Shown piece by piece: positions 4,238-20,267 of a DNA stretch of 20,269 nucleotides (position 1 is the stretch's first letter; each line of letters starts with the position of its first letter). Source of the DNA: an uncultured Kouleothrix sp. (GTDB taxonomy: Bacteria; Chloroflexota; Chloroflexia; Chloroflexales; Roseiflexaceae). The translations under genes were made by a program, and so were the position numbers. The stretch is from NCBI GenBank assembly GCA_937858455.1, contig CALLYN010000044.1, forward strand, positions 1-20,269. The letters are read 5' to 3'. Below the pieces are notes generated by a model. That model made no database searches. It saw only the letters and a list, made by a program, of their open reading frames with translations, and was not told where the DNA came from.

Positions 4238-6655
4238 TTAGTCGCCGTACGCCAACGCCAGCTCCCACCCCAGCGGCAGGTACTCGCGCAGGCGCGCTTC
4301 GAGGTTGCCCCTGCGCTGAGGTTGGTACAGGTTGTGGAACACCCCCAGCTCCGACTCGTCGTCGGCGCCTTGGCGGATCTCGAGCGCGCAGTTGTCCTCG
4401 GGCAGCGCGTTGCGGTCTTCGAGCCGGCAGTAGTCGGGCGTGCCGTAAGCAGTGCTCATGAACACGGGCGCCAGCCGCGCCGCAACCAGAGCGGGCGCCA
4501 GCGCGCCTGGCGCGGCGATCGCCATATCCGGCTGGCAGCTGTAGCGGCGTGGCGTGCGCGAGCCGAGCGGTACGGAGCAAAAGCGCAGGCAGCCCAGCTG
4601 GCGCCGAGCGACGTGCAGCGCCCCGGTGAAGATGCTGTTCTCGCCTAGCACGATCGCGTGCGCGCGCACCATGCCGATCACGGTGCTGCGTGCGATCGTG
4701 AGTGTGGCGTGGGCGTGGCGCACGTCGTCGGCTGGCACGGCCGGAGCCACCTGCTCGCCTGGGCCGCTGATCGCATACAGCTCGTCGGCGGTCGCGTCGA
4801 CAATGCTGTCGCTGATCAGCAGCTGGAAGGGCTCGGCGCGCACCTCGTGCCCGTCGATCAGGATTGACCCGAGGATGCTGTGCTCGATCCGCACCCGCAG
4901 CGTGGAGCTGGACGCGCCGTCGCGCGCCTCGGCGCCCTCGTCGCTCTGGGGAGCGTCGGTCAGGATCAGGCTGGGCTTCTCGCCGTGGCGCGGCCGGCAG
5001 CGCTCGTCGATCGCCCAGCCCGGCACGAACGTGCAGTGCCGGATGAGCACCTCGCCCGGCCGCCCAGCGATCTGTACCGCGCGCCCGGCTACCAGCAGGC
5101 CGTCGAGCACGACGCGGCTGCCCGGCTCGCACTCGATCAGCAGGTTGTCGTTGCTGTCCTCGGTCTCGGGCAGAACCAGCACCGGGCGGCAGCCGTCCTG
5201 CGCGCGCAGCTCGAGCGTCTGGCCGGCGGCGACGTAGATGCTGATTGGGTCGACGTACAGGCCGCTGTCGCGCAGCTCGATCAGGGCGTGGCGCGGCGGG
5301 CGCGGGTCGTTGTAGAACGCTTCTATCTGCTCGGCCAGCGGGTTGAGTGCGCGGGCCGGGCGGCGCGGGCGGCGGCTCAGGCCGCTGCGGGGCGCCTCCG
5401 GCGGCGCGGACACCACCGGGTACACGGCGTAGCTGCGCGCGATCGCCTGGGGAAGAGCGGCCTCGAGTAGCAGCCGGTTCAGACGCACCAGCCGCGGCCC
5501 GGCTGGGCCGCCGCTCAACAGGCGTAGGATGTCCTCGTCGAGCGGGAGATCGTCGATCGGCCCGGCGCTAAGGTCGGCGGCCTGCAGCACACGGTTGAGC
5601 TCGGCCATGAGCTGTCGCTCGAACGCCGCGAGCGGCCCGTGGTCGCCGGCATCGATCCGCGCCAGCAGCGCTGGGTCGAGCTGCGCGCGCAGGTGTAGCA
5701 CAAACGGCGAGCAATCTTCGCGCAGGGTGTCGAGCAGCGCAGCTCCGCGCGCCAGCAGGTGGCCGGGCCGGAACAGCGATACGCCGAACAGCGCATCGGG
5801 CACCGGCCGCTGGTACTCGCCGCCCCCCAGATCGGCGCCAAAGCCATACAGGTACGACACCACCAGCGCCGGCTGGGGCAGGCGGCGCGGTAGCATCATG
5901 CGGCCCATCTCGGGGTCGAGCGCCAGCCACTCGTCGCGGCCGCCGGTGCGCTGCTGCCACTCGCGCAGCTCGGCAGCGTCGAGCTGCCAGTCGTCAAGGC
6001 CGGTCACGATTAGGTGGCGGGCGCTGACCGGCCGGCCGTCGGCGTAGATCTGCAGGCTGCCGGCTGCTCCGTAGAAGGTTTCGAGCTGATCGCGGAGCAT
6101 GGCGCGCGTGAGCGGCTGGGGCTGATCGTGCGGCGGCACGCGCGCGAACAGCGGCGCGTCGTTGCCGAGCGTGTTGAGCCGGTAGCGCGCGGTGGCGGCG
6201 GCAGGCAGGGGAAACGGGCGGGCGTAGGTCAGCGGGTAGGCGCGCAGGCGCCAGAGCATAGCCGTCACGCGCGCCTGGGCCATGTTCTCTTCGACCTGCG
6301 CGGACCAGCCGGCTACGGCCGCCGCGAGATCCTCAAGCACCGCAAGGGTGCCCTTACGTCGGCGCATCCGCAGCGTGTCGGCGATGTCGCGGCGTGGGCG
6401 TAGCAGCCCGAGTGCGGCTGCTCCCACTGCGGGCGTGTACAGCGGCTTGTAGCCGACGAGGTCGCCGATATAGGGCGCGGCCCACGGCGCGCATGTTTCG
6501 ATGAACAGGTTCTCGTAGTTCTGGCTGATGTCGTCTTCGAGCAGATCGACCTCGGCCGCCACCACGCGCAGCAGATCGCGCAGCGGGTAGCCGCCCTGCG
6601 CATCGCGCACGCGGACGAGGGCAGGCAGCAACTCATACAGTTCGTCAGCGCTCAT
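4238..6655 (-). CDS. eCIS baseplate protein, Afp12-like position, tail-protein-I-like with beta-helix-like middle
   Basis: An 805-residue structural protein, the last baseplate gene. Residues 1-120 carry the family start: ELYELLPALVRVRDAQGG, LLRVVAAEVDLLEDDISQ, YENLFIETCAPWAAPYIGDL, then RRDIADTLRMRRRKGTLAVLE, as in phage tail protein I and its eCIS homologues. Residues about 480-720 are a run of short beta strands and turns (VLDGLLVAGRAVQI, LRVRIEHSILGSILI, LTIARSTVIGMVRAHAI, SIFTGALHVARRQLGCLRF) that looks like a right-handed beta-helix. The C-terminus (YGTPDYCRL, GADDESELGVFHNLY, LEARLREYLPLGWELALAYG) is typical of eCIS members. In Afp-type particles the protein after the J-like wedge caps the outer baseplate. 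Its start overlaps the stop of the preceding gene by four bases (ATGA). Confidence 0.85.
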   Translation of the reverse strand: MSADELYELLPALVRVRDAQGGYPLRDLLRVVAAEVDLLEDDISQNYENLFIETCAPWAAPYIGDLVGYKPLYTPAVGAAALGLLRPRRDIADTLRMRRRKGTLAVLEDLAAAVAGWSAQVEENMAQARVTAMLWRLRAYPLTYARPFPLPAAATARYRLNTLGNDAPLFARVPPHDQPQPLTRAMLRDQLETFYGAAGSLQIYADGRPVSARHLIVTGLDDWQLDAAELREWQQRTGGRDEWLALDPEMGRMMLPRRLPQPALVVSYLYGFGADLGGGEYQRPVPDALFGVSLFRPGHLLARGAALLDTLREDCSPFVLHLRAQLDPALLARIDAGDHGPLAAFERQLMAELNRVLQAADLSAGPIDDLPLDEDILRLLSGGPAGPRLVRLNRLLLEAALPQAIARSYAVYPVVSAPPEAPRSGLSRRPRRPARALNPLAEQIEAFYNDPRPPRHALIELRDSGLYVDPISIYVAAGQTLELRAQDGCRPVLVLPETEDSNDNLLIECEPGSRVVLDGLLVAGRAVQIAGRPGEVLIRHCTFVPGWAIDERCRPRHGEKPSLILTDAPQSDEGAEARDGASSSTLRVRIEHSILGSILIDGHEVRAEPFQLLISDSIVDATADELYAISGPGEQVAPAVPADDVRHAHATLTIARSTVIGMVRAHAIVLGENSIFTGALHVARRQLGCLRFCSVPLGSRTPRRYSCQPDMAIAAPGALAPALVAARLAPVFMSTAYGTPDYCRLEDRNALPEDNCALEIRQGADDESELGVFHNLYQPQRRGNLEARLREYLPLGWELALAYGD

Positions 6656-9561
6656 GGCAGCTCCTCTTCCTCGATCTGCTCGAGCAGCAGCATTCCAGCG
6701 GCGTCGCGCGCCAGGTAGACGATCGTGTCCGGGTCGGGCTGGTCGCCATCCATGCCGGCCCCGCCCTGGCTGCCGGGCCGCACCTTCAAAACCTCACGCA
6801 CCTGTGCGGCGATAGCGTCGGGCGAGCGTGGCTGGCCGGCGGTGCCCAGGTCGATCGCGCCGAGTGCGTCGAGGTCAACGAAGTCCACGCCGCGTACGTC
6901 CTGGATGGTGGCGATCACTTCGGCGGCATACAGCGGCTGGCCGAGGCCGCGCTGGCGAAAGCCAAACGCGGTGTACAGCGCGCCCTCGATCTGCGGGCGC
7001 ACCTGCTCCCACAGGAAATCAGGCCGCAGCCGCACTCGCGCGCTGAGCGCCAGCAGCTTGGCGCGCCGCACCTGCACTGTTACAGTCACCTCGGGGCTGC
7101 CGCGCGTTTGCAGGCGGAAGTCGGGCTGGTTGGCGTCGGCGGGGTGGCGCCGCATCTCGCCATAGCGCAGCAACGCCTCTTTCAGATTCGTGAGCAGCGC
7201 CGCATCGCGGGTGATCGGCGCGTCGTCGACGCCGGCGATCGTCAGGTGCAGGTCGGGCGGGATGTATTCCACGCTGGCTTTGCCGATGCCGGCGAAAGCG
7301 CGCGCGAAGTCGGCGATATCGTCGGCCGATACCAGGCGGTCGAGTGCGGCCAGGCCGAGTGGCGTGCGTGCACGGATCTCGTCGAGGCCGTCGCGGTCGG
7401 CGCCGCCGCTGGCTGCCAGCGGGTTGTTGACACCGATGACGCCGTTGGGCCGCGATGCCAGCACGCTGATCTGACCGGCGCGCACATTGCCGGCCGCGCC
7501 CAGGCCGCTGCGGTAGATCGCGCGCAGATTGTCCTGGCCGCTGGGTGGGCGCGCGCCCAGCCCAAAGACTAGCCGCGTCGCGCCCTCGTCGTTGTGCTGC
7601 ACGATATAGCGGCGCTCGTCGGGTCCGATCGCGGCGGCGTCGGGCGCTTCGTGCCAGCGCAGGTCGTTCACACGCACGTCGAGTGTGCTGGCAGCGCCGC
7701 TGGGCGTGGGCGCCGCGATATATGTGAGCGGTGAGTGGCGCAGGCCAAAGGCCTGCAGCGAGCGCGCGGCGCTGCCGCTGCCCAATGTCTCGGGGTGCTG
7801 CTCGCCGTGGGTCGCGTGCGCGACATTGCCGTAGATCGTGAGGCTGGCGGGATGATAGGTGTACTGGAGGCCGGGCGCGGCCAGCGTCAGGCGCGTGCGC
7901 AGCGCCTCGGTGGTCGCGGCGGCGGCGGGCGTATCGGCCGTGTGGGAGACGGCGGCGATCATCACCAGCTCGGCGCCGCGCACGCCGGTTACATGTTTCA
8001 GGTCGGCGCGCTCGCCCGCGACAATCAGCCGCCGCCCCGGCTGCAGGCCGTCGTAGAATCCGTCCAGTTCCAGCGTCGCGCCGCCCACCGGCGCGGTTAC
8101 CGGCTGCTCGGCCAGGCTCAGCTCCTCCGAGGCGGCATAGATCGTCTTGTTGCGCAGCACATCCAGCCAGCGCGCATTGGTGTTCAGCCACGGCCGATCC
8201 AGCGTTAGCTGGGTCACGCGTGCCGGAAGGTTGTAGTCGGTGCGCGAGACGGTTGCGACCGTCGCGACCGTGAACACGTATTTGTCATCGAATTTGATGT
8301 CAGGGTCGTCGATCGCGACCAGGCTGCCGGAGGCGATCTGGTCGTAGACCGCGTCGAGCGGCAGGGTATTGGTCTTGTACCCTTCAGCGCGGCGCTCGGG
8401 CGGATCGCCCAGCGACGTGCCCGAGCGGCGGGCGATCGTCTCGCCTATCACCCACTCGCGGCTGGTGGTGCGCCACTCGTCTGTGCGCTCGGGCGCCTCG
8501 GGGTCGCCCTCGCGCTCGGCCGCGCGCGAGAGCACGGCCGGCGGCTGGGCGTTGTGGCCATGGATGGCGGCTTTCACGCGCATGGCCCACACGCGCACCG
8601 CGCCGGTTGGCTCGGCGCGCACGGCGCCGGTGCGTGCAGCGGCCAGCGTGTCGCGCAGAGCTGGGTAGGCCACGCGCAGCAGCCCAAGCGGGGCGTATGA
8701 GTCGGCGCGGAAGATGTAGTCAGGGTTGAGCTTTAGCCGCGCCGCGCTGCTGGTGCGTAGCCCAGGCGCTTTGATCAGCGTGCGCAGGCGTTTCTGGCCC
8801 AGCCCGCGGCGCCCCGCGCCCGACAGCGCGCCAGCCGAGCGCCCGAGCAGCGGCTGGAGTGTCACGCGGGTGCGATTCTCGGTTGGCCGCGCCTCGGCGG
8901 CCTGCACCCGGCGTAGCTGGTACTGTCGGCCGCGTGCGCCGTTGAACTCGAACAGCAGGGTGTCACCCGCCCGCAGGCTGGCGCTTGCGCCCTTGATAAA
9001 CAGCTCCTCCGAGGCCGCGCTCAGCTGCTGCGGCGCGCTCAGCCGCGGGCGCATGGCGCTCCAGCGCGGCCGCCCACGCAGCGGCTCGATCGTCTCGAAC
9101 GGCTGCATTGTCTCGCCAGGGCCGGGCTGGCTGTAGGCGCGTGTGCTGCTGGCGGCCTCGATCTCGGCCTCTTTATTCAGATCGTCGAAGGTGAAAGCCA
9201 GGTACACGTCGGCGGCCAGGCCGGGACGCGGCGCGTAACCCACTAGTCGCGCCAGCTCGAGAGCCGAGCGTCGCTCGACGCAGGTGCGCAGGTAGCACTC
9301 GTTGATGATCCGCTCGTTGTAGAAGCCCAGCACCTCGCTGACGCAGGCCCAGGCGTCCAGCAGCGCCAGCGCCGGGTCGCTGGTGTCGCGCGGCGCCAGC
9401 GCGCGCAGGCCCGGCAGCTCCGCTGACGTCAGCCGGGTGCGCATGCGCTCCCAAGCGGCGGAGTAGGCGCCACGTCTGTACACCAGGGCTGGTTGATCGG
9501 GCGGGTTCGCGGGCGCGGCAGTGGAGCAGCCCGCGCAGCCGCAACAGCAATTGTCACTCAT
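6652..9561 (-). CDS. Second baseplate-J-like wedge protein of the eCIS (Afp11-like)
   Basis: A 969-residue protein of the large putative baseplate-assembly family (gpJ/gp6-like). The N-terminus has a tight cysteine cluster, CCCGCAGC at residues 5-12. Residues about 30-130 contain RMRTRLTSAELPGLRAL, SDPALALLDAWACVSEVLGF, YNERIINECYLRT and LARLVGYAPRPGLAADVYL, the conserved start of this family. The J-type core appears around residues 660-810: RLVFGLGARPPSGQDNLRA, GLGAAGNVRAGQISVLA, GVNNPLAASGGADRDGLDE, then DIADFARAF. It would pair with the preceding protein as the wedge arms around the spike. It starts and ends with 4-base ATGA overlaps. It resembles its upstream neighbour in architecture, probably an old duplication, but the two proteins are clearly diverged. 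Confidence 0.88.
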   Translation of the reverse strand: MSDNCCCGCAGCSTAAPANPPDQPALVYRRGAYSAAWERMRTRLTSAELPGLRALAPRDTSDPALALLDAWACVSEVLGFYNERIINECYLRTCVERRSALELARLVGYAPRPGLAADVYLAFTFDDLNKEAEIEAASSTRAYSQPGPGETMQPFETIEPLRGRPRWSAMRPRLSAPQQLSAASEELFIKGASASLRAGDTLLFEFNGARGRQYQLRRVQAAEARPTENRTRVTLQPLLGRSAGALSGAGRRGLGQKRLRTLIKAPGLRTSSAARLKLNPDYIFRADSYAPLGLLRVAYPALRDTLAAARTGAVRAEPTGAVRVWAMRVKAAIHGHNAQPPAVLSRAAEREGDPEAPERTDEWRTTSREWVIGETIARRSGTSLGDPPERRAEGYKTNTLPLDAVYDQIASGSLVAIDDPDIKFDDKYVFTVATVATVSRTDYNLPARVTQLTLDRPWLNTNARWLDVLRNKTIYAASEELSLAEQPVTAPVGGATLELDGFYDGLQPGRRLIVAGERADLKHVTGVRGAELVMIAAVSHTADTPAAAATTEALRTRLTLAAPGLQYTYHPASLTIYGNVAHATHGEQHPETLGSGSAARSLQAFGLRHSPLTYIAAPTPSGAASTLDVRVNDLRWHEAPDAAAIGPDERRYIVQHNDEGATRLVFGLGARPPSGQDNLRAIYRSGLGAAGNVRAGQISVLASRPNGVIGVNNPLAASGGADRDGLDEIRARTPLGLAALDRLVSADDIADFARAFAGIGKASVEYIPPDLHLTIAGVDDAPITRDAALLTNLKEALLRYGEMRRHPADANQPDFRLQTRGSPEVTVTVQVRRAKLLALSARVRLRPDFLWEQVRPQIEGALYTAFGFRQRGLGQPLYAAEVIATIQDVRGVDFVDLDALGAIDLGTAGQPRSPDAIAAQVREVLKVRPGSQGGAGMDGDQPDPDTIVYLARDAAGMLLLEQIEEEELP

Positions 9562-12557
9562 CGGCTGGCCTCCAAGATCAGCGTTAGCACGCCGTTTGCG
9601 GGAGCATCGGGGTCGTTGTCGAGCCGCACGATCTCGTTTTGGCCCACCGCGAGCAGACCGTCGTCGGGCAGCGACTGCGCCTCGCCCTGGCGGTGGAGCT
9701 GCGTGACGCTGACGGCCGCGACGCCCGGTACCTTCTGCGCTCTCGCCACCAGCGCGCTGATCGCGATACCTTGCCCGAAGGTCAGGGTGTCGGGGTGGAA
9801 GAAGCCGCGCCGTCCGCCGGGCAGCGCGCGGTTGCTGAATAGATCGTTCAGGGCCGCGTATACCGCGCCGCGCTCGCTATGCGGCAGCATCCGCACGCGC
9901 AGTGCGAGGCTGATGCCCACCGGCTTGGCCACCTCGACCGTCAGATCATGCCCGAGCCGGCGGAAATGCGCGAGGTGACCGCTGACGCGGCCGGCGATCT
10001 CCGCGTCGTCGGCCCCGCCACGCGTGTCGAGCAGTACCCGCACCGCGGCTCGGCCGCCTCCGCCGGGCTCGATCGCGGCGTGCGCACGCTGGATCTGAGT
10101 GCTGAAATCGCGCTCCACGATCGCGGCGTAGTCGTCGGCGGTGATCGCCCGCATCAGCGTCTGGCGGAAGGCGTGAGGCGCGCGCAGGCGGGCATCGGCC
10201 AGCGGCTCGGGCGCGCTGCCGCCGACGGCCGGCAACGGGTTGCGCACCCGAATAATCGCGCCGCCGCGTAGCATGCCGCGCAGCACCAGGCCGTCGATCT
10301 GCTCGGCGGCGATATTGCCGGCCGGCCCGCCGCCTACGCGGTAGGCCGCCAGGAAGCGTGCGCCCGGCGTTGGCGTAGCGCCGTGCTCGTCGTCGCCGAA
10401 GCGCACATAGGCGCGCTGGTCGTCGTCGACCTCCACGACAAAGTGGCGGTCGTCGGGGGCGCTCGCGAGCAGGTCGGGGCGCGGCTCCCAGCGCTCGTAG
10501 AGCAGCGGCAGCGGCGGCCAGCCGTCGAAGCCGGGCAGGCGCGTGACCGGCGGCTGGCGTGGGTGCGCGCGCTCGACCGGGCTGAAGAGCATGATCTGCG
10601 GGCGTGCCAGGCGCGGATCTTGCCGCAGCGCCAGGCTGGCTGGCATACCGGGCGCGGGCGGCGGCTCGGCGAACACCAGCGGGCCGCGCGCCAGTGTGGG
10701 CCGGTAACGGCCGGCCAGCATAAAACTTTCGGCCAGGCGGCCCTCGCCGTCGCAGCGCGCGCGCATCTCGGCCACCGGCACCAGATCGTCGGGCGGCTCG
10801 AACGGCACGGCCAGGATCGTCCGAGCGCTGTCGCGCAGCCGAGCCGGGTCGGGCTCGCGCAGCTTCTCGCCGTGGTCGGCCAACACCACATTGCCGCGCG
10901 CGACGCTCACATCTTCGAGCATCGCGCACTCGGGCGCCGGGCCGAGCGCCGAAAGACACAGCGCGAACGGCAATGCGTCGGCTGGATCCCAGGCGATCTC
11001 GACGATCGGCTGGTCGCAGAGCGGGTCAGTGGCCGGGTCGGCGCGAGTGAGACGTACCGCGTGGCGGTGGCGCGGGTCGGCGTCGGCAGCCTGGCCGCTA
11101 CGCGGGCCAAGCACTTCCTCGAAGATGAGCACGTCGCCTGGGCGCAGATAGCGCAGCGCCCGCCGCTCGGCTGCGCGGTCGACCCAGGCGTCGCGCAGGG
11201 TAGCGCTGGTGGCGCCGGCCGGCAGGCAGCACTCGGCCTGCTGCCAGGTGTAGAAGCGGATGCAGTTGTGGGCCTGGTAGAAGCGCAGCAGCGCCGGCTG
11301 GGCCAGCTCGGTGGGCAGGGCGTCTTCGAACGCCGGTCGGTTGTGCTGGCACAGGCACGCGCCGTGCAGCGCGTTGAGCGAGCCGTAGCGCGCGGCCACT
11401 TGCGCCGCTGCGTCGGCGTCGGCCAGCGCCAGACCGGGCTGGTTGAGCACCCGGTTCAGCTCGCTTGCCAGCGCGGCGATCAGGCGCGGCAGTTCCTCGG
11501 GCGGACCCTCAGCCAGCTCGAGCAGTGCGCGCGTCTCGGCGCCGAGCTGGGCGCGGATGTAAAGCAGCAGCCGCCCACGCTCGTTCGGGTCGCGCAGGCG
11601 GCGCGCCAACATACGCGGGCGGCGGATGTCGCGCTCGGTGATCGCGGCCGGCAGCGCCTCGATGATCGGCTCGAACAGCTCGTAGCGCTCGCGCGGCGTA
11701 TCGCGCAGCGCATCGGGCAGCAGCACCGGGCCGGTGCCGCGCAGGCCGGCCGGCCGGGTGATGAACGTCAGCGCATCGGCCGCGATCTCGGGATCGCCCT
11801 CGACTTCGAGGTAGACCCAAGCGCGCGCATTGCAGCCTTCGTGCAGCGCGTAGTCCACCAGCCGCACGTGGCGGCGAACCGAGATGCGCCGGCGCGCGGT
11901 TTCCAGGTAGGCCTCGGTCGCCACTGCGTCCTGGTAGTAGCTCAGCTGGTCGCCGGCGTAGGCCAGCAGCTCCACCAGCGTGAGGTACAGGTCTGGGCTG
12001 TGGCGCTCGCGCCAGCCTGGCAGAGTAAGCGCCAGCCGGTCAAGCAGCAGCTGGCGAAAGCTGGCGTAGTCCTTGGCGAGGTAGCTCAGCTCGGGCGTGG
12101 TGCCGACGTCGGGCGCGCAGCCCGGCGGTTGGCGGCAATCGATCTCGGCCGGGGCGTCGGGCACGAAGCTAAACCGCGCGGCACTGTAGCGCGCGTCGAA
12201 GCCCGGCAGCGGGCCATCGCCGGCCGCGCTGGCCAGCCGCAGCGTATAGGTCGCGCGGCCGCCCGGCGCGTCGAGCCGAATGATCGCCACATCGTCGACC
12301 GCCTCGTCGTTCGGGCGCTCGAAATCGAGCGCGAGCGCGCGTAGCCCAGGCGGGCGGCCACCCGTGATTCGCACATTCGCCAGCTCGAACGGCTGGGCAA
12401 GGTCGGGCGGGAATTTGGTCAAGAAAAACACCCGCAGGATCGGCCGCCCCTGGTCGTCGGTATCGGTTTCGACATAATCGATTCCATACCAGCAGCGTGC
12501 GCGCACAAGCGCGCGGCGGCGGTCGTCGCGGCAGGTGAGCTCGGTCGTATCGCTCAT
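9558..12557 (-). CDS. First baseplate-J-like wedge protein of the eCIS (Afp11-like)
   Basis: A 999-residue putative baseplate-assembly protein. Family signatures: LSYLAKDYASFRQLLLDRLA and LTLPGWRERHSPDLYLTLVE around residues 155-195, LLAYAGDQLSYYQDAVATEA and LVDYALHEGCNARAWVYLEV after it. Near residues 720-815 lies the gpJ core: RFGDDEHGATPTPGARFLAA, YRVGGGPAGNIAAEQIDGL, NPLPAVGG, then ITADDYAAIVERDF. It should form the inner part of the baseplate wedge, contacting gp25 and the hub. The start at 12557 overlaps the gp25 stop (ATGA), and its stop overlaps the next start in the same way. The middle (residues about 270-450) is rich in Arg/Ala/Leu and has no recognised domain. Confidence 0.9.
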   Translation of the reverse strand: MSDTTELTCRDDRRRALVRARCWYGIDYVETDTDDQGRPILRVFFLTKFPPDLAQPFELANVRITGGRPPGLRALALDFERPNDEAVDDVAIIRLDAPGGRATYTLRLASAAGDGPLPGFDARYSAARFSFVPDAPAEIDCRQPPGCAPDVGTTPELSYLAKDYASFRQLLLDRLALTLPGWRERHSPDLYLTLVELLAYAGDQLSYYQDAVATEAYLETARRRISVRRHVRLVDYALHEGCNARAWVYLEVEGDPEIAADALTFITRPAGLRGTGPVLLPDALRDTPRERYELFEPIIEALPAAITERDIRRPRMLARRLRDPNERGRLLLYIRAQLGAETRALLELAEGPPEELPRLIAALASELNRVLNQPGLALADADAAAQVAARYGSLNALHGACLCQHNRPAFEDALPTELAQPALLRFYQAHNCIRFYTWQQAECCLPAGATSATLRDAWVDRAAERRALRYLRPGDVLIFEEVLGPRSGQAADADPRHRHAVRLTRADPATDPLCDQPIVEIAWDPADALPFALCLSALGPAPECAMLEDVSVARGNVVLADHGEKLREPDPARLRDSARTILAVPFEPPDDLVPVAEMRARCDGEGRLAESFMLAGRYRPTLARGPLVFAEPPPAPGMPASLALRQDPRLARPQIMLFSPVERAHPRQPPVTRLPGFDGWPPLPLLYERWEPRPDLLASAPDDRHFVVEVDDDQRAYVRFGDDEHGATPTPGARFLAAYRVGGGPAGNIAAEQIDGLVLRGMLRGGAIIRVRNPLPAVGGSAPEPLADARLRAPHAFRQTLMRAITADDYAAIVERDFSTQIQRAHAAIEPGGGGRAAVRVLLDTRGGADDAEIAGRVSGHLAHFRRLGHDLTVEVAKPVGISLALRVRMLPHSERGAVYAALNDLFSNRALPGGRRGFFHPDTLTFGQGIAISALVARAQKVPGVAAVSVTQLHRQGEAQSLPDDGLLAVGQNEIVRLDNDPDAPANGVLTLILEASR

Positions 12558-12913
12558 AGCGTTCTCCGCTCGAACACCGCCACCTGGCGCTCGCCGCTGC
12601 GCAGCAGCACATACTGCACAAGCACCGCGAGCGTGCTGTCCTCACTGCGCACCTCGAGGCCCTCGAGCGACAACAGATCGCCCAATTCGCGCTGGATGGC
12701 GGCCTGCATCGTAAACTGCAGCGCCGCAGCCAGCTCGGGGCTGTTGGGCGCGAAGATCAACTGGCGCAGGCCGCAGCCAAAGCCAGGGCGGTTCACGCGC
12801 TCGCCGGGATCGGTGAAGATCAGCAGCTCGAGCATGTCGCGTACGTGCTCCGCATCGTCGGTCAGGCTGGTGCGCCCGCGCATCGCGTAGCTCCAGGGGT
12901 AGTCGATCTGCAT
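12554..12913 (-). CDS. GPW/gp25 family baseplate wedge protein (Afp9-like)
   Basis: A 119-residue protein with the gp25/GpW lysozyme-like fold signature. MQIDYPWSYAMRGRTSL, then DDAEHVRDMLELLIFTDPGE, RVNRPGFGCGLRQLIFAPNS (the counterpart of the conserved core wedge motif), and FTMQAAIQRELGDLL. In contractile systems this protein joins the wedge to the sheath and is essential for assembly. The ATG at 12913 was chosen because GAGGG lies about five bases upstream. A GTG six codons earlier (12931) overlaps the PAAR gene and adds atypical residues. Its stop overlaps the start of the first J-like gene by four bases. Confidence 0.9.
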   Translation of the reverse strand: MQIDYPWSYAMRGRTSLTDDAEHVRDMLELLIFTDPGERVNRPGFGCGLRQLIFAPNSPELAAALQFTMQAAIQRELGDLLSLEGLEVRSEDSTLAVLVQYVLLRSGERQVAVFERRTL

Positions 12914-12920
12914 AGCGCCC

Positions 12921-13271
12921 TCACATGGCAAACACGCGGCCCTGCAGCGCGCTCACCACTGGCGCGCCTTGGGGGATCTGCTCGATCGGCAGACATATGC
13001 CCTGGCCGGGGCCGGGCACCTGCACCACCGCCGGCTGGCCGTTGATCAGCACACGCGTGGCCGGCGCCCAGCGCAGGCTCACGCACGGCTGCGGCTTGGT
13101 GCCGGGCGGCACCGGGATCTGGAATGGGCAGCCGGCCACGTTCCACAGGTCGGCGACCGTCACCGCCGCCAGCGGGCCGACGAATACGCGCACGTTGCTG
13201 GTAGCGGCGCTGGCCGCCGCGCCGTGGAAGCACTGCACTCCCGCGCCGATATGCAATAGAAATCCGGGCAT
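12921..13271 (-). CDS. PAAR-like spike tip protein (Afp10-like)
   Basis: A 116-residue protein with the layout of PAAR-like/DUF4280-type tips: MPGFLLHIGAGVQCFHG at the start, VRVFVGPLAAVTVADLW, AGCPFQIPVPPGTKPQPCVS, ATRVLINGQPAVV, and a closing IPQGAPVVSALQGRVFAM. His and Cys residues (H7, C14, H16, C68, C83) are candidate metal ligands for the pointed tip. It would cap the spike encoded just upstream and sharpen the puncturing end; in related systems PAAR proteins can also carry effectors, but this one has no extra domain. AAGGAG lies about seven bases before the ATG. Confidence 0.82.
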   Translation of the reverse strand: MPGFLLHIGAGVQCFHGAAASAATSNVRVFVGPLAAVTVADLWNVAGCPFQIPVPPGTKPQPCVSLRWAPATRVLINGQPAVVQVPGPGQGICLPIEQIPQGAPVVSALQGRVFAM

Positions 13272-13284
13272 GCCTGCGCTCCTT

Positions 13285-13836
13285 CTACTTCACAATCAGC
13301 GCGCCGAGGTTCACCGTCACCACGCCGCCCATCAGCGTCACCATCGCGCCCTTGCCATCCGAGAGCGTGATGCCCAGGTCGTTCACCACGATCATCGCGC
13401 CCGAGCGGCTCTGCAGCACGATCCCGCCGCTGATCGGCGTCGGCGGGGCGTCGCTGAGCTGGATGCTGTTCATTAGCGGCGTGTGCATCGTCATGGTCGG
13501 GATTGGCGGCGGGAACAGCTGCACCAGCGGCGGCACCTCGGCGCGCGTGCTGTGGTAGCAGCCGGTCCAGATCGGCCGGTCGGGGTCGCCGCCCTCGAAC
13601 TCGATCCACACCCCTGCGCCGATCGGCGGCACGGCGATGAAGCCGCTCTGCATGCCGGCCACCGGGAAGCACGGCATGGCCCAGCTCGACGAGAGTGAGA
13701 TGATGCCGGTGACTTCCACCAGCACGCGGCCGATGCCCATCGGATCGAAGTTGTTCAGCACCGAGCCGCGATACTTGCCGAAGTAGTGCTTCTTGCCATG
13801 CGCCGGCTTGGGGCCGGGAGCTGTAGCTGTCGTCAT
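13285..13836 (-). CDS. gp5-like spike protein: OB-fold plus short beta-helix (C-terminal half of a split VgrG)
   Basis: A 183-residue spike protein. Residues 20-100 form the gp5/VgrG OB-fold: YRGSVLNNFDPMGIGRVLVE, WAMPCFPVAG, GFIAVPPIGAGVWIEFEGGD, then DRPIWTGCYH. Residues 130-183 are alternating hydrophobic strands (GGIVLQSRSGAMIVVNDLG, ITLSDGKGAMVTLMGG, VVTVNLGALIV) suggesting a trimeric beta-helix needle. Canonical eCIS Afp8/VgrG proteins have a gp27 part and this gp5 part in one chain. Here the gp27-like half is the separate gene immediately upstream, overlapping by four bases (ATGA). It should sit under the PAAR tip encoded next. Confidence 0.88.
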   Translation of the reverse strand: MTTATAPGPKPAHGKKHYFGKYRGSVLNNFDPMGIGRVLVEVTGIISLSSSWAMPCFPVAGMQSGFIAVPPIGAGVWIEFEGGDPDRPIWTGCYHSTRAEVPPLVQLFPPPIPTMTMHTPLMNSIQLSDAPPTPISGGIVLQSRSGAMIVVNDLGITLSDGKGAMVTLMGGVVTVNLGALIVK

Positions 13837-14969
13837 ACTGGGATCCTTTGCACTGTCGAGATCAGGCCGTTGCGCACCAGCTCAAAGCTCTGCTTGAACT
13901 CGCCGCGCTTGAGTGTGCTGACCACGCTCTCCACGTAATACAGGCCGTCGAAGGCTGTGCCGACGCCGCGCAGCCCTACCAGCCGGCGCGGCTTAAGCGC
14001 CTGCCCGTAGCGCAGCACATCCAGCGAGCCGCTGGCATGCGCGCTGCGGCTGCTGGTAGCCTGCTTGGCCCAGGCCAACATCAGCGCGCGCGGGAAGCTC
14101 CTGTTCGCGGCGCGGTACTCGATCTCGAAGCCCTTCGGGATCGGCGGCACCAAACCCAGCGGCGGGTCGAGCGGATTGATGAGCCCGACTGGGATCGGGA
14201 TGGGCGGGAAGCGCGTGATCGGGTTCTCGATCGCGACGATCGGCATGATCGCGCCGTTGTGATCGAACGTGCAGCTGATCTGCTCAACGTTGGTCTCCAT
14301 GTCCATATCGACGTTCAGCGCCTTCTGCACCGGCCCGACGCGCAGCATCGGCCCCCAGTAGGCCAGGTTGGCGCCCACCACCGGCCCAGGCTCGATGTAG
14401 AAGGTGTAGCCGACCTCGTCCGCCAGCCAGCGCAGGTACGTCAGATCGGTGCCCCAGTGCTGCTCGATCCGCTCGAGCGGGTTGTTGATGTCGATCGTCG
14501 GCGTCGGGATGATCAGCGGTACCAGGCCGAACAGCATGTACTTGGCGATGATCAGCGCCACGCGCGCTTCGACCGGCATGGCCGGGTAGGGCAGCAGGCC
14601 GGTGAAATCGACGTTGTCCATTACCTGGCTGATATCGCGGCCTTTGACGACGAGCTGGGTTGGGCCGGCGCCGGTGTCGGGCGCGATCTGCGTCTGGGTC
14701 ACCACGCCGTCCATCAGCACGTCGAGCGAGCCGTAGACGCTAACCGCCAGCACGACGCGGATGAGCGGCGGCATGGCGCCGCCCGAGAGCAGGAAGATCG
14801 TCTGGAGCAGGCCGGCGTTGTCGCTCAGGTTGAACTTCAGCTCGAAGCCCTCGTCGTCGCCGCTGCCGGCGCGCACCGTCACCTCGGTCAGCGCCTCGAC
14901 CAGCGCGCGCGGCGCGGGGATGGGCACCGCCGGGCCGACGTAGATCGACAGGTTGATGCCGCTATTCAT
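13833..14969 (-). CDS. Late-control-D/gp27-like spike hub protein (N-terminal half of a split VgrG)
   Basis: A protein of about 378 residues resembling phage late control gene D and VgrG gp27 modules. Seen: an N-terminal strand-rich domain (LVEALTEVTVRAG, GFELKFNLSDNAGLLQTIFL), VLMDGVVTQTQIAPD, LVVKGRDISQVMDNVDFTGL, then WGTDLTYLRWLADEVGYTFY, the most conserved D-type block, and a C-terminal SLDVLRYGQALKPRRLVGLR and YYVESVVSTLKRGEFKQSFE. It would form the trimeric hub between inner tube and spike. In-frame ATGs occur at 14975 and 14969; 14969 is preferred because GGGGAA then lies about six bases away. Both lie inside the end of the LysM gene, so translation is probably coupled. Its stop overlaps the gp5-like start (ATGA). 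Confidence 0.87.
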   Translation of the reverse strand: MNSGINLSIYVGPAVPIPAPRALVEALTEVTVRAGSGDDEGFELKFNLSDNAGLLQTIFLLSGGAMPPLIRVVLAVSVYGSLDVLMDGVVTQTQIAPDTGAGPTQLVVKGRDISQVMDNVDFTGLLPYPAMPVEARVALIIAKYMLFGLVPLIIPTPTIDINNPLERIEQHWGTDLTYLRWLADEVGYTFYIEPGPVVGANLAYWGPMLRVGPVQKALNVDMDMETNVEQISCTFDHNGAIMPIVAIENPITRFPPIPIPVGLINPLDPPLGLVPPIPKGFEIEYRAANRSFPRALMLAWAKQATSSRSAHASGSLDVLRYGQALKPRRLVGLRGVGTAFDGLYYVESVVSTLKRGEFKQSFELVRNGLISTVQRIPV

Positions 14970-15342
14970 CGCCATTCCCCGGCATACCTTCAGGCAGCGG
15001 CACGCGCAGCCGGCGGCCCAGCTCGGCCATCAGCTCATTTGGGTGCAGCGCGCGGTTGGCGTCGCACAGCCGCCAGAACAGCTCGGGGTCGCCGATCTCG
15101 GCCGCGGCGATGTGGTCGAGCCGCTCGCCCTGACGCAGCACGTGCTCGCGCAGCAGCGCCAGGCGCTCGGGCGCCGGCACGAAGCGGCGGCGCAGGTAGA
15201 TGATCGGTCGCTCGCCGTCCGGGTCGAGGATCGCGGTGGCCAGGCCGGCGTAGCGGCTGTTGGGCGGGAACAGCGTGGCGCTGAGTGGCAGCGGCTGGAG
15301 CAGCGCCTGCAGGCGCTGGTTCTGGTCGTCGTAGCTGGTCAT
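14962..15342 (-). CDS. LysM-type tail adaptor protein (tail protein X-like)
   Basis: A 126-residue protein. The C-terminal half has a LysM/tail-protein-X pattern: EHVLRQGERLDHIAAAEIGD, PELFWRLCDANRALHPNELM, LGRRLRVPLP. The N-terminal half (SRYAGLATAILDPDGERPII, YLRRRFVPAP) is common in eCIS and phage LysM proteins. It would join the tube end to the hub. In Afp/PVC the equivalent LysM segment is the C-terminus of Afp7/Pvc7, whereas here it is its own gene. Its start overlaps the tube-protein stop by four bases, and its stop lies within the start region of the hub gene. Confidence 0.83.
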   Translation of the reverse strand: MTSYDDQNQRLQALLQPLPLSATLFPPNSRYAGLATAILDPDGERPIIYLRRRFVPAPERLALLREHVLRQGERLDHIAAAEIGDPELFWRLCDANRALHPNELMAELGRRLRVPLPEGMPGNGDE

Positions 15343-16001
15343 GACGGCACCCCTTGGAGCCCTAGCGTGCCAGCCGCGGCGTCGCGGTGCATGGCCGCCA
15401 GGCGCTCTTTCTCCTTCTGATAGCGCAGGTATAGCGCGCCGCCGCGGTGAGCGAAGCCCAGGTCGCTGACGCTGAGGACGCGCAGGCCCAGGCTGATTTT
15501 GGCGCGGATCGGGTTGAGCTGCGGATCGAAAAACTCTTCGGTGATGCTGAAATCGGTAACACGCACCGGCGCGACGCGGCTGGTGCTCCAGACGAACAGC
15601 GCCAGCGGCGCCTGGATCGGCGCGATCTCCAGCTCGCCGCGCCCGGCCATGCGGTCGTACTCTTGCAGCTGCGCGCTGGTGGGGTACACCAGCAGCTCGA
15701 TCGCCGCCAGCTGCGGCAGCAAGCCCAATCGGCGCACCAGCGGGTCGCCGGCCTCGAGCTGGTCGGCCGCGTCGAGCTCGGCCTCGAGCTTGTAGGTCTC
15801 GACCGGCGGGCCCTTGAGGCGCAGCGCCATCGAGCGGTCGGCGCTGGCCTCGGCGCCGACCGACTGCGGCTGCAGGGTGCGGCTGAGCGTGTCCGGGTTA
15901 TACTGCAGCGCGATCACTCGTACCGGCGTGCCGGCGTCCGGGTCGATCAGCGCGATGCCGCCCTTGATCAGGCGCGGCGAGATTGGCGAGTCGGTGGGCA
16001 T
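15339..16001 (-). CDS. CIS tube/adaptor protein (N-terminal part of Afp7-type proteins)
   Basis: A 220-residue protein of the contractile injection system tube-adaptor family. Seen: LIKGGIALIDPDAGTPVRVI, ALQYNPDTLSRTLQPQ (the conserved F/LQYNP-x-T/S motif), GPPVETYKLEAELDAADQLE, LLPQLAAIELLVYPT, LFVWSTSRVAPVRVTDFSIT and EEFFDPQLNPIRAKISLGL. It should sit between the inner tube and the hub; the LysM part usually fused to it is encoded by the next gene. AAGGA lies about nine bases upstream of the ATG. It follows a 91-base gap after the second DUF4157 gene, the largest gap in the operon. Confidence 0.88.
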   Translation of the reverse strand: MPTDSPISPRLIKGGIALIDPDAGTPVRVIALQYNPDTLSRTLQPQSVGAEASADRSMALRLKGPPVETYKLEAELDAADQLEAGDPLVRRLGLLPQLAAIELLVYPTSAQLQEYDRMAGRGELEIAPIQAPLALFVWSTSRVAPVRVTDFSITEEFFDPQLNPIRAKISLGLRVLSVSDLGFAHRGGALYLRYQKEKERLAAMHRDAAAGTLGLQGVPS

Positions 16002-16092: not shown

Positions 16093-17706
16093 CTACTGCG
16101 CTTTAGGCTTGGTTGGCTCGCCGCCGATATTGAGCGGGGGTGATTCAAAGCTTTTTGGATCGGGCATATTGGCCGGCGGAGCGGGCCGATTCTGGCTGAA
16201 CGATGCAGACTGAGCAAGCAATTGATCGATCATTTCGTACATTCGCTCGATCGCCAGCCGTAGCTCGTCGGTTGCGTCGGCCAGCATCCGGCTGCCCACA
16301 GGCGATTTTCCAAGGATCTCTTTTGTTGCGTTGGATAGATGGGCCTGGAATTTGCTCGCCAAGGCGCGTGCGTAGAGTCGGGCCACCGTGTTGTTCGACC
16401 GCTCGTGCTTTGTGGCAGCTTTGGTCGCTGTCTGCGATACGTATTTTTCCTGGGTGAGAAATTCAATCACTGCAGCCGGTGTAAGTTCCGGATCAGCATC
16501 GAAGGCCGCCTCTGCGCTAGCGTCCTTGTTGATATAGAACGAACGTAGCGCGCCGATCTTTGTCAGAACGACTTTCTCACGCTCCCAAAGGCCACTCACA
16601 ATCGGCAGCGCTCCATAGCTAGCTTTACTGTCAGTCGAATCGCGCTTGCCAAATGTGGCGCTTGGTAGCACCTCAGTCATCTCGTTGAGCTGAGCATACT
16701 CATTAAAAAAGCTCGACCGCTTCTCGGCGGGCAGGCGCCGGTCGATCATAATGCGCAGATGAATCAGCTCGTGCAGTGCCGTTTCAAGTGACGAGGCTTG
16801 CCCGCCGCGCAAGATAAACGTTTCTTGGTGCCGCATGGCTTTGCCGTCGGGTGTGGTGACGGTTTGTTCCGGTGCGATTGCGCCTCCGAAGGCGGCACCA
16901 CGGTACTGCTCTTCTTCGCTTAGCTCTATGATCTCGGTCTTCACTTCCCAGGTATGCTCGACGCCATCGATCAACTCTTTATGCACAGTGTGGAATGCGC
17001 CATCGGCGATAATCTGGTCGATCAACTCGTTCAGCTCGCCGCGCCCAAGCGCACGCAGCTTTTTACGCTCATCTGGCAAGAAGCGATTCGCACGCATCAT
17101 CTTTCGTTGGGGTTTGCGGTGAAGCGTCGGCTGAGCCGTACCGATGCTGCCGATGGCTTCGCCACTAGCCACACGTTGTGCCGCTTGAACGGCCGCATGC
17201 TCGCTCACGCTCGCCGCTGGCTCGACACGCAGATGCGCGGATGTTGCTTGCTCCCCCTGCTGCACCACGTGGGCGAGCTCGTGCGCCAGCAGGCGCTGCC
17301 CGGCACTGCTGCCCGGCTGGTACTCACCCGCGCCGAACGCAACATGGTTGCCGACGGTATACGCCTGCGCCTGCACGGCGTCGGCGCTGGCAGCCGCCTG
17401 CGCGTCGGTGTGCACGCGCACGTCGCCGAAGTCTTGGCCGAAGCGCGGCTCCATGGCGTCGCGCGTCGCATCGTCGAGTGGCTGGCCAGGCGCGCGCAGC
17501 ACATCGTGCACGATCGGCGGCGCTACGGCTGGCGCCTGGGCGATGGCCGCGCGTTGGAGCTGGCCCTGCGCGCGCTTCTGCGCGCACTCAGCGCACTCGC
17601 CGCCCGCGTCGGTATGCTTGCCACACGCACAGGCGCGCTGAAGGTTGATTGGTGGCGGTGTGGCCTTGGTGGAGTGAGCCGTCGCTTGTGTTTTCTCTTT
17701 GCTCAT
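16093..17706 (-). CDS. DUF4157 protein with a second HExxH metallopeptidase-like C-terminal domain; candidate eCIS cargo
   Basis: A 537-residue modular protein. Residues 26-41 hold a Cys motif (CAC...CAEC) that could bind zinc. Residues about 62-155 are DUF4157: PPIVHDVLRAPGQPLD, RFGQDFGDVRVHTDAQAAA, AYTVGNHVAFGAGEY, and LLAHELAHVVQQ with HELAH at 142-146. A linker leads to an unrelated C-terminal region with a second zincin-like motif, ALHELIHLRIMIDRR (HELIH at 312-316). Acidic residues in FFNEYAQLNEM (about 333-343) are possible third ligands. The tail is helical and ends Pro-rich. DUF4157 proteins are recurrent partners of eCIS loci, so a payload role is likely; peptidase activity of the C-terminus is inferred only from the motif. 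The C-terminal coding DNA is visibly less GC-rich than the N-terminal module. It starts five bases after the preceding stop. Confidence 0.8.
   Translation of the reverse strand: MSKEKTQATAHSTKATPPPINLQRACACGKHTDAGGECAECAQKRAQGQLQRAAIAQAPAVAPPIVHDVLRAPGQPLDDATRDAMEPRFGQDFGDVRVHTDAQAAASADAVQAQAYTVGNHVAFGAGEYQPGSSAGQRLLAHELAHVVQQGEQATSAHLRVEPAASVSEHAAVQAAQRVASGEAIGSIGTAQPTLHRKPQRKMMRANRFLPDERKKLRALGRGELNELIDQIIADGAFHTVHKELIDGVEHTWEVKTEIIELSEEEQYRGAAFGGAIAPEQTVTTPDGKAMRHQETFILRGGQASSLETALHELIHLRIMIDRRLPAEKRSSFFNEYAQLNEMTEVLPSATFGKRDSTDSKASYGALPIVSGLWEREKVVLTKIGALRSFYINKDASAEAAFDADPELTPAAVIEFLTQEKYVSQTATKAATKHERSNNTVARLYARALASKFQAHLSNATKEILGKSPVGSRMLADATDELRLAIERMYEMIDQLLAQSASFSQNRPAPPANMPDPKSFESPPLNIGGEPTKPKAQ
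17263..17607 (-). repeat. Copy 2 of the duplicated Cys-motif plus DUF4157 module
   Basis: This coding segment (GGECAEC through HELAHVV) closely matches 19917-20267 in protein and DNA. For example, the stretch encoding VRVHTDAQ and its flanks differs by one base over about 44. Confidence 0.85.
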
Positions 17707-17711
17707 TTCGC

Positions 17712-20267
17712 TCAGTCTTCGCGCAAGTTCGGATGTCGCGCCTGTTTCACCTCGCGCTCAGTATTGGGCTGGGCAAACTCAAGGCGCAGGTTGTCGGCGT
17801 CCAGCGCCTTTCGCCAGTTGTCCCCCTGCGCCTTCTCCGCGATATGATCCAAGCTGATGCGCGTTTCTTGCTCTGGTATGCTCGGATCGACCCCACCAAG
17901 CACCGGCGCAGTGGTGTTGCGACTCGGCAGCACAAAACCTGCGTCAGTCAGTATCTTTGTAGCTGCTGGGTCGCGGCGCACGTTGCGCCAGAACGCATCA
18001 CGGGTCTTGTCGTACAGTATGGTCTTATTGGCGTCAGTCAGTGTGTTGCTGCGCAGCACCTCAGCGCGGGCCGCGTCCCAGTGCCTCGATAGCTCAGGAA
18101 GATCGGACACCTTCTTGCCAATGACTGTTCGCACACGTGCCACGGCTTGGCGGCTCGTCTCTCCAGGCCGGAGCGGCACATCTTCGATGTCCATCCGCGT
18201 CTTTGGTTCCGGTGGGACACGGCGATCGCCAATCCGCTGGTTCGTCTTACCACCTGTGACGTTCGGCGTGGCCGCTTGGTTCTCCAATGCGCCCTCGAAC
18301 GCTTTCTCGACTGAGCGCTTCCATCGTTCTTGGCCGCTCTGCGCCTTCCACTGCTCGCGTGTGGTCGCTCGCTCGCCGGGTTGGGGCCGATAACCGCGAT
18401 CGGCCAGGCCAACATCGGTAGTTGCAGGCTTGTCGGCGGTAGCTGCGGGCTGTGGAGGCGTCGCGGCCGCCTGGGATTTCACAGCGTTCGCAACTTTCGC
18501 CTGTGCGGCTGTATGAACACCGCTGCCCAGCGCAACCATGAACCAGCCGGTTGGCTCCGAGAGCGCGTCAGCCAGGTGCTTCAGATAGTCGTCCCATGTC
18601 ACATTTTTACCGTGCAGCTGCTGGTAAACATCCGACACAGTAGTGCTAAAGGCTTGCGAGACAACGTGCGTCGCGGCGCCGCTCACAAGCGTCGCAATGG
18701 CTTGGCGAGCCAGCGTCTGGGTGGCCGGGTTGCCGGCGAGCTTGCCGGCGATACCGGCGCTGAGCTTGCCGCCAAACTTGGCTAGGACGATCTGCACCAC
18801 TGTTTCGACCACCAGCTGACCCCAATCGACCTTGTCGCCTTCTGCGACTTTGAGCCCCGCTACCCCAAGGTTGGCGACGATCGGCGCGCCCACCGAGACC
18901 ACCGTCGTAGTGGTCCCCAGGCTTAGGCCGCCGACCCCAGTCCCTACAACCCCGGCCTCTAGCCCCAGCGCGGCGCCGCCGGTGATAACCACGGCCAGCA
19001 CGCCAACCGTAATAAAGGCCGCGTCCCGGGTGTAGGTCAGCTCGGTCGCCAGGTTCTCGCCGCCCTCGATCAGCTGGTCGATATAGGCGTGCACAATGAT
19101 GCTGGTGCGCTCGGAGGCGGCGTCAGCCTCGGACACGAGCCGAATGGCTTCGGCGAAGCTGTCCTTTTCGATCACAGCCTTCGCGCGCGCGGCGCGGTCG
19201 TTCACAATCGCCGACTGGCCGTAGACCGACTCGCGCGGATTCGAGTAGCTGCCAAGCGATCTGATCCACGCGAACGCCTTCACCGCGCGCGATGTCACCG
19301 GGAAATCGTCGTTAACCTTTTCCTGGCCTTGGTAGCGCCCCAGCGCCTGGTTGCGCCGGCTGATTGATTTGTCCAGGGCGTCCTTCAGTGCCTTACGGGC
19401 ACCGGCGCGAACCTGCTCGGCCTGTTGTGTGGTCAGCGTGATTGTCTGGCCTTTGAAGCGTGTGGTGAACAAGCCGCCAGCAAGCTCGGACGGTTTGATC
19501 GCGTCGATCACCCGCATGACCTCGATGATCTCCTCGACACTGGCGCTCGGCGATATATTCAGCGCGGCGGCGGTGGGTGCGGCCTTCGTTGGCGCTACGG
19601 CGGTGACGTTCGAGGGACTGTTCGCGGCGGACGTGTTCTTGAGCAGCGCGCTCAGCTGGCCAAACTCCTCAGCTGCGGCCTTGCGCTCCGCCGCGCTGAA
19701 CCTTAGGTCGTTCATGACTACGTTGAGCTCTTCCAGGCGCTTATTGATCTGCTCCTGTGTCATGGCCTCGCGCCGTATCGCTGGCGCCTCGCCAGGCATT
19801 GCGGTGGGTGCCTGCCCTTGGGTCAATGCGCGCGCGGCATGTTCACCGGGCGAGGTCTCGGCAGTTATCAGCAGCGTAGACGCCGCTGGTTCCGATCGAG
19901 CAACCGGACTTGCTAGCACCACGTGCGCTAGCTCGTGGGCCAGCAACCGCTGGCCGGTGCTGCTGCTGGGCTGGTACTGCCCGGCGCCGAAGGCCACGTG
20001 ATTGCCGACGGTGTAGGCCAGCGCGCCGACCGATCGGGCGCTCTCGGCGGCCTGCGCGTCGGTGTGCACGCGCACGTCGCCGAAGTCCTGGCCGAAGCGC
20101 GGCTCTACGAACGCGCGGGTTTGCTCGTCCAGCGGCTGGCCGGGTGTGCGCAGTACGTCGTGCACGATCGGCGGCGCTACATCCGGCGCCGGGGCGGCCG
20201 CAATCGCCGCGCGCTGCAGCAGGCCCTGCTCGCGCTTCTGCATGCACTCCGCGCACTCGCCGCCCGC
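17712..20267 (-). CDS. DUF4157 protein with HNH-like nuclease C-terminus; candidate eCIS toxin; N-terminus beyond window
   Basis: At least 851 residues are visible; the frame is open to the window edge, where it reads AGGECAEC, the same Cys motif as its neighbour, so the start is missing and the ATG at 20243 is internal. Numbering from that Met, DUF4157 spans about 20-112 (PPIVHDVLRTPGQPLD, RFGQDFGDVRVHTDAQAAE, HELAH at 103-107). Then come a helical, Lys/Ala/Glu-rich part, a Gly-rich hydrophobic stretch at about 402-465 (two possible membrane-active segments), and a polar Pro-rich linker. The last 50 residues read ISLDHIAEKAQGDN, ALDADNLRLEF and AQPNTER. The DH (799-800) with later Asn residues (818, 828) fits an HNH/His-Me-finger nuclease. 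A polymorphic-toxin layout, probably a DNase payload; activity is inferred. Confidence 0.78.
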   Translation of the reverse strand, partial: AGGECAECMQKREQGLLQRAAIAAAPAPDVAPPIVHDVLRTPGQPLDEQTRAFVEPRFGQDFGDVRVHTDAQAAESARSVGALAYTVGNHVAFGAGQYQPSSSTGQRLLAHELAHVVLASPVARSEPAASTLLITAETSPGEHAARALTQGQAPTAMPGEAPAIRREAMTQEQINKRLEELNVVMNDLRFSAAERKAAAEEFGQLSALLKNTSAANSPSNVTAVAPTKAAPTAAALNISPSASVEEIIEVMRVIDAIKPSELAGGLFTTRFKGQTITLTTQQAEQVRAGARKALKDALDKSISRRNQALGRYQGQEKVNDDFPVTSRAVKAFAWIRSLGSYSNPRESVYGQSAIVNDRAARAKAVIEKDSFAEAIRLVSEADAASERTSIIVHAYIDQLIEGGENLATELTYTRDAAFITVGVLAVVITGGAALGLEAGVVGTGVGGLSLGTTTTVVSVGAPIVANLGVAGLKVAEGDKVDWGQLVVETVVQIVLAKFGGKLSAGIAGKLAGNPATQTLARQAIATLVSGAATHVVSQAFSTTVSDVYQQLHGKNVTWDDYLKHLADALSEPTGWFMVALGSGVHTAAQAKVANAVKSQAAATPPQPAATADKPATTDVGLADRGYRPQPGERATTREQWKAQSGQERWKRSVEKAFEGALENQAATPNVTGGKTNQRIGDRRVPPEPKTRMDIEDVPLRPGETSRQAVARVRTVIGKKVSDLPELSRHWDAARAEVLRSNTLTDANKTILYDKTRDAFWRNVRRDPAATKILTDAGFVLPSRNTTAPVLGGVDPSIPEQETRISLDHIAEKAQGDNWRKALDADNLRLEFAQPNTEREVKQARHPNLRED
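19917..20267 (-). repeat. Copy 1 of the duplicated Cys-motif plus DUF4157 module
   Basis: Partner of the module at 17263-17607; similarity stops just after HELAHVV, where the two proteins diverge into unrelated C-terminal regions. The copy runs off the right edge. Confidence 0.85.

Follow-up and report, generated by a model that had tools for sequence, protein, structure and literature searches.

Does the second of two zincin-like HExxH motifs in a candidate extracellular contractile injection system (eCIS) cargo protein mark the active site of a peptidase payload? The question is raised by a 20,269-nucleotide stretch of DNA from an uncultured Kouleothrix sp. of the Chloroflexota (contig CALLYN010000044.1, positions 1 to 20,269; hereafter the window), on the reverse strand of which, as for all features of the window described here, an open reading frame (ORF; 16093..17706) encodes a protein of 537 residues. 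This candidate cargo is composed of a disordered N-terminus, an eCIS_core (DUF4157) domain, a flexible linker and a new C-terminal domain with its own HExxH motif. A sequence-only reading of the window had placed HELAH at residues 142-146, within DUF4157, and HELIH at residues 312-316, and the ORF and both motifs are as it gave them. It had also proposed that DUF4157 could process or guard the protein while the C-terminal domain would be the toxic enzyme. We give a probability of roughly 0.58 to the reading in which the C-terminal domain acts as the effector of an eCIS cargo and does so as an active zinc peptidase.

The HELIH motif and its domain

The C-terminal domain (residues 199-537; 16096..17112) has database relatives but no convincing family match. 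Composition shuffles placed an HExxH somewhere in the 339-residue C-terminal part in 1,530 of 100,000 trials, and at least two HExxH motifs in the whole 537-residue protein in 82 of 100,000. A chance origin of HELIH (16759..16773) is ruled out by its conservation, as every one of the 37 database proteins (P0002-P0039 except P0030, P0002 being the window protein's own record) keeps H-E-x-x-H at identities down to ~35%, and no homologue lacking the His and Glu residues was found among them. The fourth position of the motif varies between I, L and V across the same proteins, and constancy of HExxH beside a varying neighbour is the pattern of an active site.

An alignment of 16 rows that includes distant family members identified nine invariant residues: H293, H312, E313, H316, R318, D322, R388, E415, and E420. 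H293 (16828..16830) is also constant in the 33 rows of a second alignment and is situated on the strand preceding the HELIH helix in the AlphaFold model. In the 33-row alignment, E415 (16462..16464) and E420 (16447..16449) are kept in all 31 rows that reach them. The presence of downstream glutamates that could complete a zinc site, as suggested previously, is therefore borne out, but not for the near residues that this had implied: E342 (16681..16683) is replaced by D in one of the 16 rows and by A in another, and E345 falls in a gap in six, which weakens the case for either as third ligand. If the site is that of a gluzincin, E415 or E420 would be the better candidate for this role on the basis of the alignments, since both are invariant whereas E342 and E345 vary; E420 may alternatively support the third ligand.

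The AlphaFold model of the C-terminal domain has a predicted local distance difference test score (pLDDT) of 88.6 and a predicted template modelling score (pTM) of 0.83. HELIH is located on a helix (residues 307-322, pLDDT >90) that follows a beta hairpin and lies behind antiparallel strands, and E415 and E420 are on a later helix (residues 410-432). The domain shows no relation to DUF4157, in line with what had been claimed: profile alignment of the two paired just six residues, at and beside the motif, with a probability of 1.6%, whereas the positive control (P0035) gave 100%. Fold searches with the model returned no significant match to any solved fold, zincin folds included. Among the best-ranked matches for each half of the model, lethal-factor chains appeared repeatedly, without significance and favoured by the many copies of these chains that have been deposited.

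Several points weigh against an active protease toxin. In addition to the lack of a significant match to a solved zincin fold, the third ligand is only a candidate and the large helical C-terminal half has no known relative, all of which would be consistent with a zincin relict or a metal-dependent domain that is no peptidase, such as another hydrolase or one with structural zinc. We consider this explanation unlikely, as H, E and H are retained in all 37 proteins, including E313, the equivalent of the catalytic base in zincins, even though the neighbouring residue varies. The remaining point comes from the AlgoCIS particle, whose DUF4157 cargo proteins Cgo1 and Cgo2 were shown to be loaded in the tube (PMC8894135). 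Cgo1, which is found in the tube lumen, resembles the window protein in its DUF4157 domain, its disordered N-terminus and its two putative HExxH motifs (drawn in the legend of Extended Data Fig. 9 of that paper), a likeness of description rather than of compared sequences. In contrast to the role predicted here, point mutants in the Cgo1 motifs still killed Escherichia coli (PMC8894135), which counts against a need for proteolysis.

The DUF4157 half, the linker and a possible mode of action

The eCIS_core domain (PF13699) was identified at residues 76-153 (17248..17481; E 4e-34) with a score of 117 bits against a cut-off of 22. Zhang et al. (2012) named this domain PVC-metallopeptidase, gave HExxHxxQ-E as its signature, and proposed it to be an autoproteolytic releasing domain that precedes C-terminal toxins, some of them zincin-like (PMC3482391). 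The signature is intact in the window protein: H142, E143, H146, and Q149 of the HELAH site (17269..17283) and E169 (17200..17202) are kept in all 24 aligned rows, and by comparison with the published signature E169 is likely the third zinc ligand. The protein therefore has two separate zincin-like motifs, each strictly conserved in its family, as the sequence-only reading had held.

A complete site raises the alternative that DUF4157 itself is the toxic peptidase and that the HELIH domain has a targeting or regulatory part. Zhang et al. (2012) allowed a toxin role for some DUF4157 copies (PMC3482391), and in the type VI secretion system protein VgrG2b a C-terminal domain annotated as DUF4157 requires its HExxH for periplasmic toxicity (PMC6899460). 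VgrG2b is comparable in being a zincin on a contractile injection machine with an essential HExxH and a third-ligand glutamate on a later helix; however, its DUF4157-type domain is the toxin itself (PMC6899460), whereas in the window protein DUF4157 lies N-terminal to another HExxH domain. It is this other domain that is the more conserved half (mean pairwise identity of 59%, vs. 52% for DUF4157, over 276 pairs from 24 proteins), with a catalytic-type motif of its own in all 37 relatives. Furthermore, two relatives (P0008 and P0016) have no DUF4157, although their N-termini look full, and still carry both HELIH and the linker motif [I/V/L]xRQP. We therefore regard a toxic DUF4157 as decidedly improbable. 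It is feasible that a neighbouring DUF4157 protein acts in trans on P0008 and P0016, as the contigs that encode them are short. In general the two domains appear to travel together, as their pairwise identities are correlated (r 0.67).

The linker (residues 187-206; 17089..17148) carries a conserved [I/V/L]xR(Q/K)P motif and is a candidate release site based on the alignment and the model: R197 is kept in all 26 rows having a letter at this position, and pLDDT falls below 50 at residues 199-204. If DUF4157 cuts the protein, this flexible segment with R197 would be the natural site. Among other DUF4157 proteins the motif is only slightly over-represented (12 of 65 vs. 3.3 expected), and it was present in 17 of 364 other sequence windows.

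We envisage that the disordered N-terminus and DUF4157 form a shared chassis that gets the cargo loaded and may cut it, and that the payload proper is a new zincin-like metallopeptidase made up of the C-terminal 340 residues. Zinc would be held by H312, E313, and H316 on one helix together with E415 or E420 on the later one. After firing of the particle the payload would perhaps be freed at the [I/V/L]xR(Q/K)P linker, and would then cleave proteins of the target cell. A loading or chaperone function has also been proposed for DUF4157 (PMC11297309). The existence of two active sites that can be disabled separately makes the old question of DUF4157 function addressable within one molecule.

Also N-terminal to eCIS_core, residues 26-41 (17584..17631) form a zinc-knuckle-like CxCG-x(9)-CxxC motif (C26, C28, C38, and C41) that follows the residues LQR. 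Similar CxCG-x(n)-CxxC motifs were present in nine of 70 sampled DUF4157 proteins and in none of 741 other ORFs, and the combination with LQR could serve as a loading tag.

Recurrence of the second motif and spread of the payload family

DUF4157 joined to a second HExxH domain is an architecture that recurs, and the window protein represents one branch of it that has no name. A second HExxH was identified in 20 of 65 distinct DUF4157 proteins of the same phylum, whereas composition shuffles led us to expect 0.68; as a control, nine of 247 other ORFs of at least 250 residues, spurious frames included, contain an HExxH. The sample comprised 80 stretches that were chosen by their DUF4157 match and cover 81 of 115 places outside the window's genome, the balance being 32 places of lower rank and two higher-ranked ones interrupted by an in-frame stop. 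The profile used for ranking also contained the C-terminal domain, although the matches of the ranked places lay in its DUF4157 part. DUF4157 was present in most rows of the alignment used for the phylum scan, so that, except in the window protein's own row, the matches fell there and not in the payload. These stretches held 100 DUF4157 ORFs, 99 of them with HExxH in the domain, of which 81 were distinct; 16 were dropped for a C-terminal part shorter than 100 residues, leaving 65, some of which are cut by the end of a stretch.

The 20 proteins are spread over eight of the 43 C-terminal clusters. Seven of the eight, three of which are single proteins, show the motif in each of their members. 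Ten sequences were scanned, nine of the 20 second-HExxH sequences being represented by other members. Three scored above the curated Aspzincin_M35 cut-off and two above that of DUF922, one fell just short of M35, and the rest were weak or nameless. A second HExxH is in itself no proof of a zincin (e.g., L090). The cargo proteins with Aspzincin_M35 or DUF922 C-termini share the layout of the window protein but belong to other C-terminal families, and none of the second-HExxH groups had a profile tie to its payload. Beside the M35-like and DUF922-like proteins, the sampled stretches (L011-L015 and L037-L116) contain further nameless second-HExxH families, for instance one with HEMGHVWQYQ.

A fuller version of the mechanism would have the payload as a separate gluzincin-like lineage, its third ligand, E415 or E420, being placed ~100 residues after HExxH in a helical bundle that has no known relative, and would have the linker cut by the DUF4157 zincin. 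The protein would then be a two-stage protease cargo and one of many, given that about a third of the DUF4157 cargo in the phylum has a second HExxH. We offer this combination tentatively, and hold it to be possible rather than probable.

A DUF4157 cargo with two zincins is not unique, this kind having been known since 2012; the novelty lies in the payload family. The PVC-metallopeptidase toxins share with the window protein an N-terminal HExxHxxQ-E zincin, a variable C-terminal toxin and an eCIS (PVC) operon. The C-terminal zincins listed for them are of the ALF, HopH1, and Tox-MPTase3 types (PMC3482391), whereas the C-terminal domain described here matches no Pfam model significantly. The suggestion that this family may represent a new effector class thus holds insofar as no library searched has a name for it, and has to be qualified insofar as its architecture was already known. 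Searches of Pfam, NCBIfam, PHROGs (best E 0.047), PADLOC, and PDB sequences gave nothing convincing for the domain, the PDB search returning four rows that are not peptidases (E 0.05 to 0.2). Compared with the known toxin metallopeptidase families (ALF-type, HopH1/M91, Tox-MPTase1-5, M35, and DUF922), P0001 and P0030 had no Pfam match beyond eCIS_core. Some relatives weakly match M91 (best E 0.065), M78, or SprT-like models, below the cut-off where one was shown, and a distant tie may exist. Profile comparison of the family with seven second-HExxH groups, with the lethal-factor-like domain of a Verrucomicrobia protein (from genome L004, see below) and with DUF4157 detected no tie, the closest being L093 at a probability of 9%.

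In the literature a text search gave nothing recognisable as the payload domain, although an entry in a supplementary table is possible, and in the passages it covered we found no stated count of second HExxH motifs in DUF4157 proteins. Danov et al. (2024) counted 1,130 predicted eCIS toxins that contain DUF4157, of which 983 had no other annotated domain, and 46 predicted toxins with a protease or peptidase annotation (PMC11297309). A new payload family is of interest against these numbers. The sharp conservation of HExxH in this family and the occurrence of a second HExxH in 20 of 65 proteins suggest that protease payloads among DUF4157 cargo are under-counted.

A search with residues 190-537 identified 28 proteins, including the window's own record, most at 50-61% identity. 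A profile free of DUF4157 (A4) and a distant member used as query added eight further proteins with identities to the mid-thirties. A Terracidiphilus record is the third named member of the family. In one relative (P0032) the payload domain continues in one frame into a PIN domain, probably because a frameshift or an error of assembly has joined two adjacent genes. The family is rare and patchy, as sampled genomes yielded no further full-length copies. In the window's own phylum (400 genomes) there was one full match, in the window's own genome, and three weak partial matches. The phylum of the Verrucomicrobia genome L004 (387 genomes) and the family of the Lysobacter genome L005 (297 genomes) each gave one, namely the known L004 and L005 loci. 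Across these three sets the scans, in which scoring was limited to the few best candidates of each genome, thus added no full-length copy to those already known, three in number. No relatives of the payload were found in viral contigs or in phage and plasmid records.

The eCIS operon and neighbouring genes

The prediction that the protein is an eCIS cargo is supported both by its eCIS_core domain and by the eCIS operon genes downstream. After a gap of 91 bases the next gene encodes a CIS tube-like protein of 220 residues (15339..16001), with a match to PF19266 (E 4.5e-4) that is below the cut-off and 61% identity to the L004 counterpart in the same place. It is followed by a small baseplate protein of 126 residues (14962..15342; PHROGs baseplate matches, E 4e-4, and synteny with L004), a hub-like protein of 380 residues that PHROGs classes as a tail protein (13833..14975; phrog_52, E 0.0013, and synteny with L004) and a spike protein with a Phage_base_V OB domain (13285..13836; E 2e-17). 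The next protein, of 116 residues (12921..13271), has no Pfam match and is labelled PAAR or tip by its position, with 40% identity to the L004 gene in the same place. Beyond it are a gp25-like baseplate wedge (12554..12931; E 3.9e-14), large baseplate protein 1 of 999 residues (9558..12557; synteny with L004), and large baseplate protein 2 of 969 residues (6652..9561), which is Baseplate_J-like (PF04865, E 3.2e-4, just below the cut-off). A tail protein of 805 residues (4238..6655), pieces of which are 29-45% identical to its counterpart at the corresponding position of L025, closes the block.

The same genes occur in the same order in L004, at 29-61% identity. The L004 cargo copy is 54% identical to the window protein and stands beside three additional intact genes with DUF4157, of which one (L004:4845-5984) has a sub-threshold match of the anthrax-lethal-factor type (ATLF), giving this locus another gene for DUF4157 with a zincin-like payload, and a DUF4157 fragment is present between the intact cargo genes (L004:9154-9291). 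The operon setting holds for the window and L004, the Lysobacter copy being the exception: it has no structural eCIS genes within ~10 kb on either side, and a sheath gene is on another contig.

This setting raises the question of whose proteins the cargo would act upon. No candidate immunity gene was seen beside the 537-residue gene, which is separated by 5 bases from the gene upstream and by the 91 bases from a structural gene downstream. This fits a distant, perhaps eukaryotic, target. It would also suit a cargo that, though packaged in eCIS particles, has its effect on the producer or the particle, whether in maturation of co-packaged cargo or in lysis or differentiation of the producer. 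The Streptomyces cargo Tme, which acts in the life cycle of its own producer (PMC11126660), is a precedent, and the four intact DUF4157 genes together in L004 mean that one peptidase could process the others in trans. Conversely, the Lysobacter copy, without structural eCIS genes nearby, is unlike a maturation factor, and the patchy spread of the family is typical of payloads. On balance we think action on the producer or particle distinctly unlikely, and favour an effector directed at a target cell.

The gene upstream of the 537-residue gene encodes a second DUF4157 cargo (17712..20267; PF13699, E 2.9e-31) of 851 residues, its start cut by the contig end (20269). Its only Pfam match is to eCIS_core; the middle of the protein is hydrophobic, and by eye its C-terminus resembles an HNH-type nuclease.

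The window's genome contains a second eCIS operon (L024, C663:14000-24074, and L028) with genes for the end of an AAA ATPase, a Pvc16-like protein, sheath, tube, and LysM-type proteins, the names having been assigned partly by eye. It also encodes a 231-residue DUF4157 protein without a long payload, with further spike- and baseplate-like genes downstream, and an additional sheath gene is present on C1079. Between tube-like genes of L024 is a gene for a 1042-residue protein (L024:873-4001) with several near-identical repeats of ~23 residues, which by eye is possibly the tape measure.
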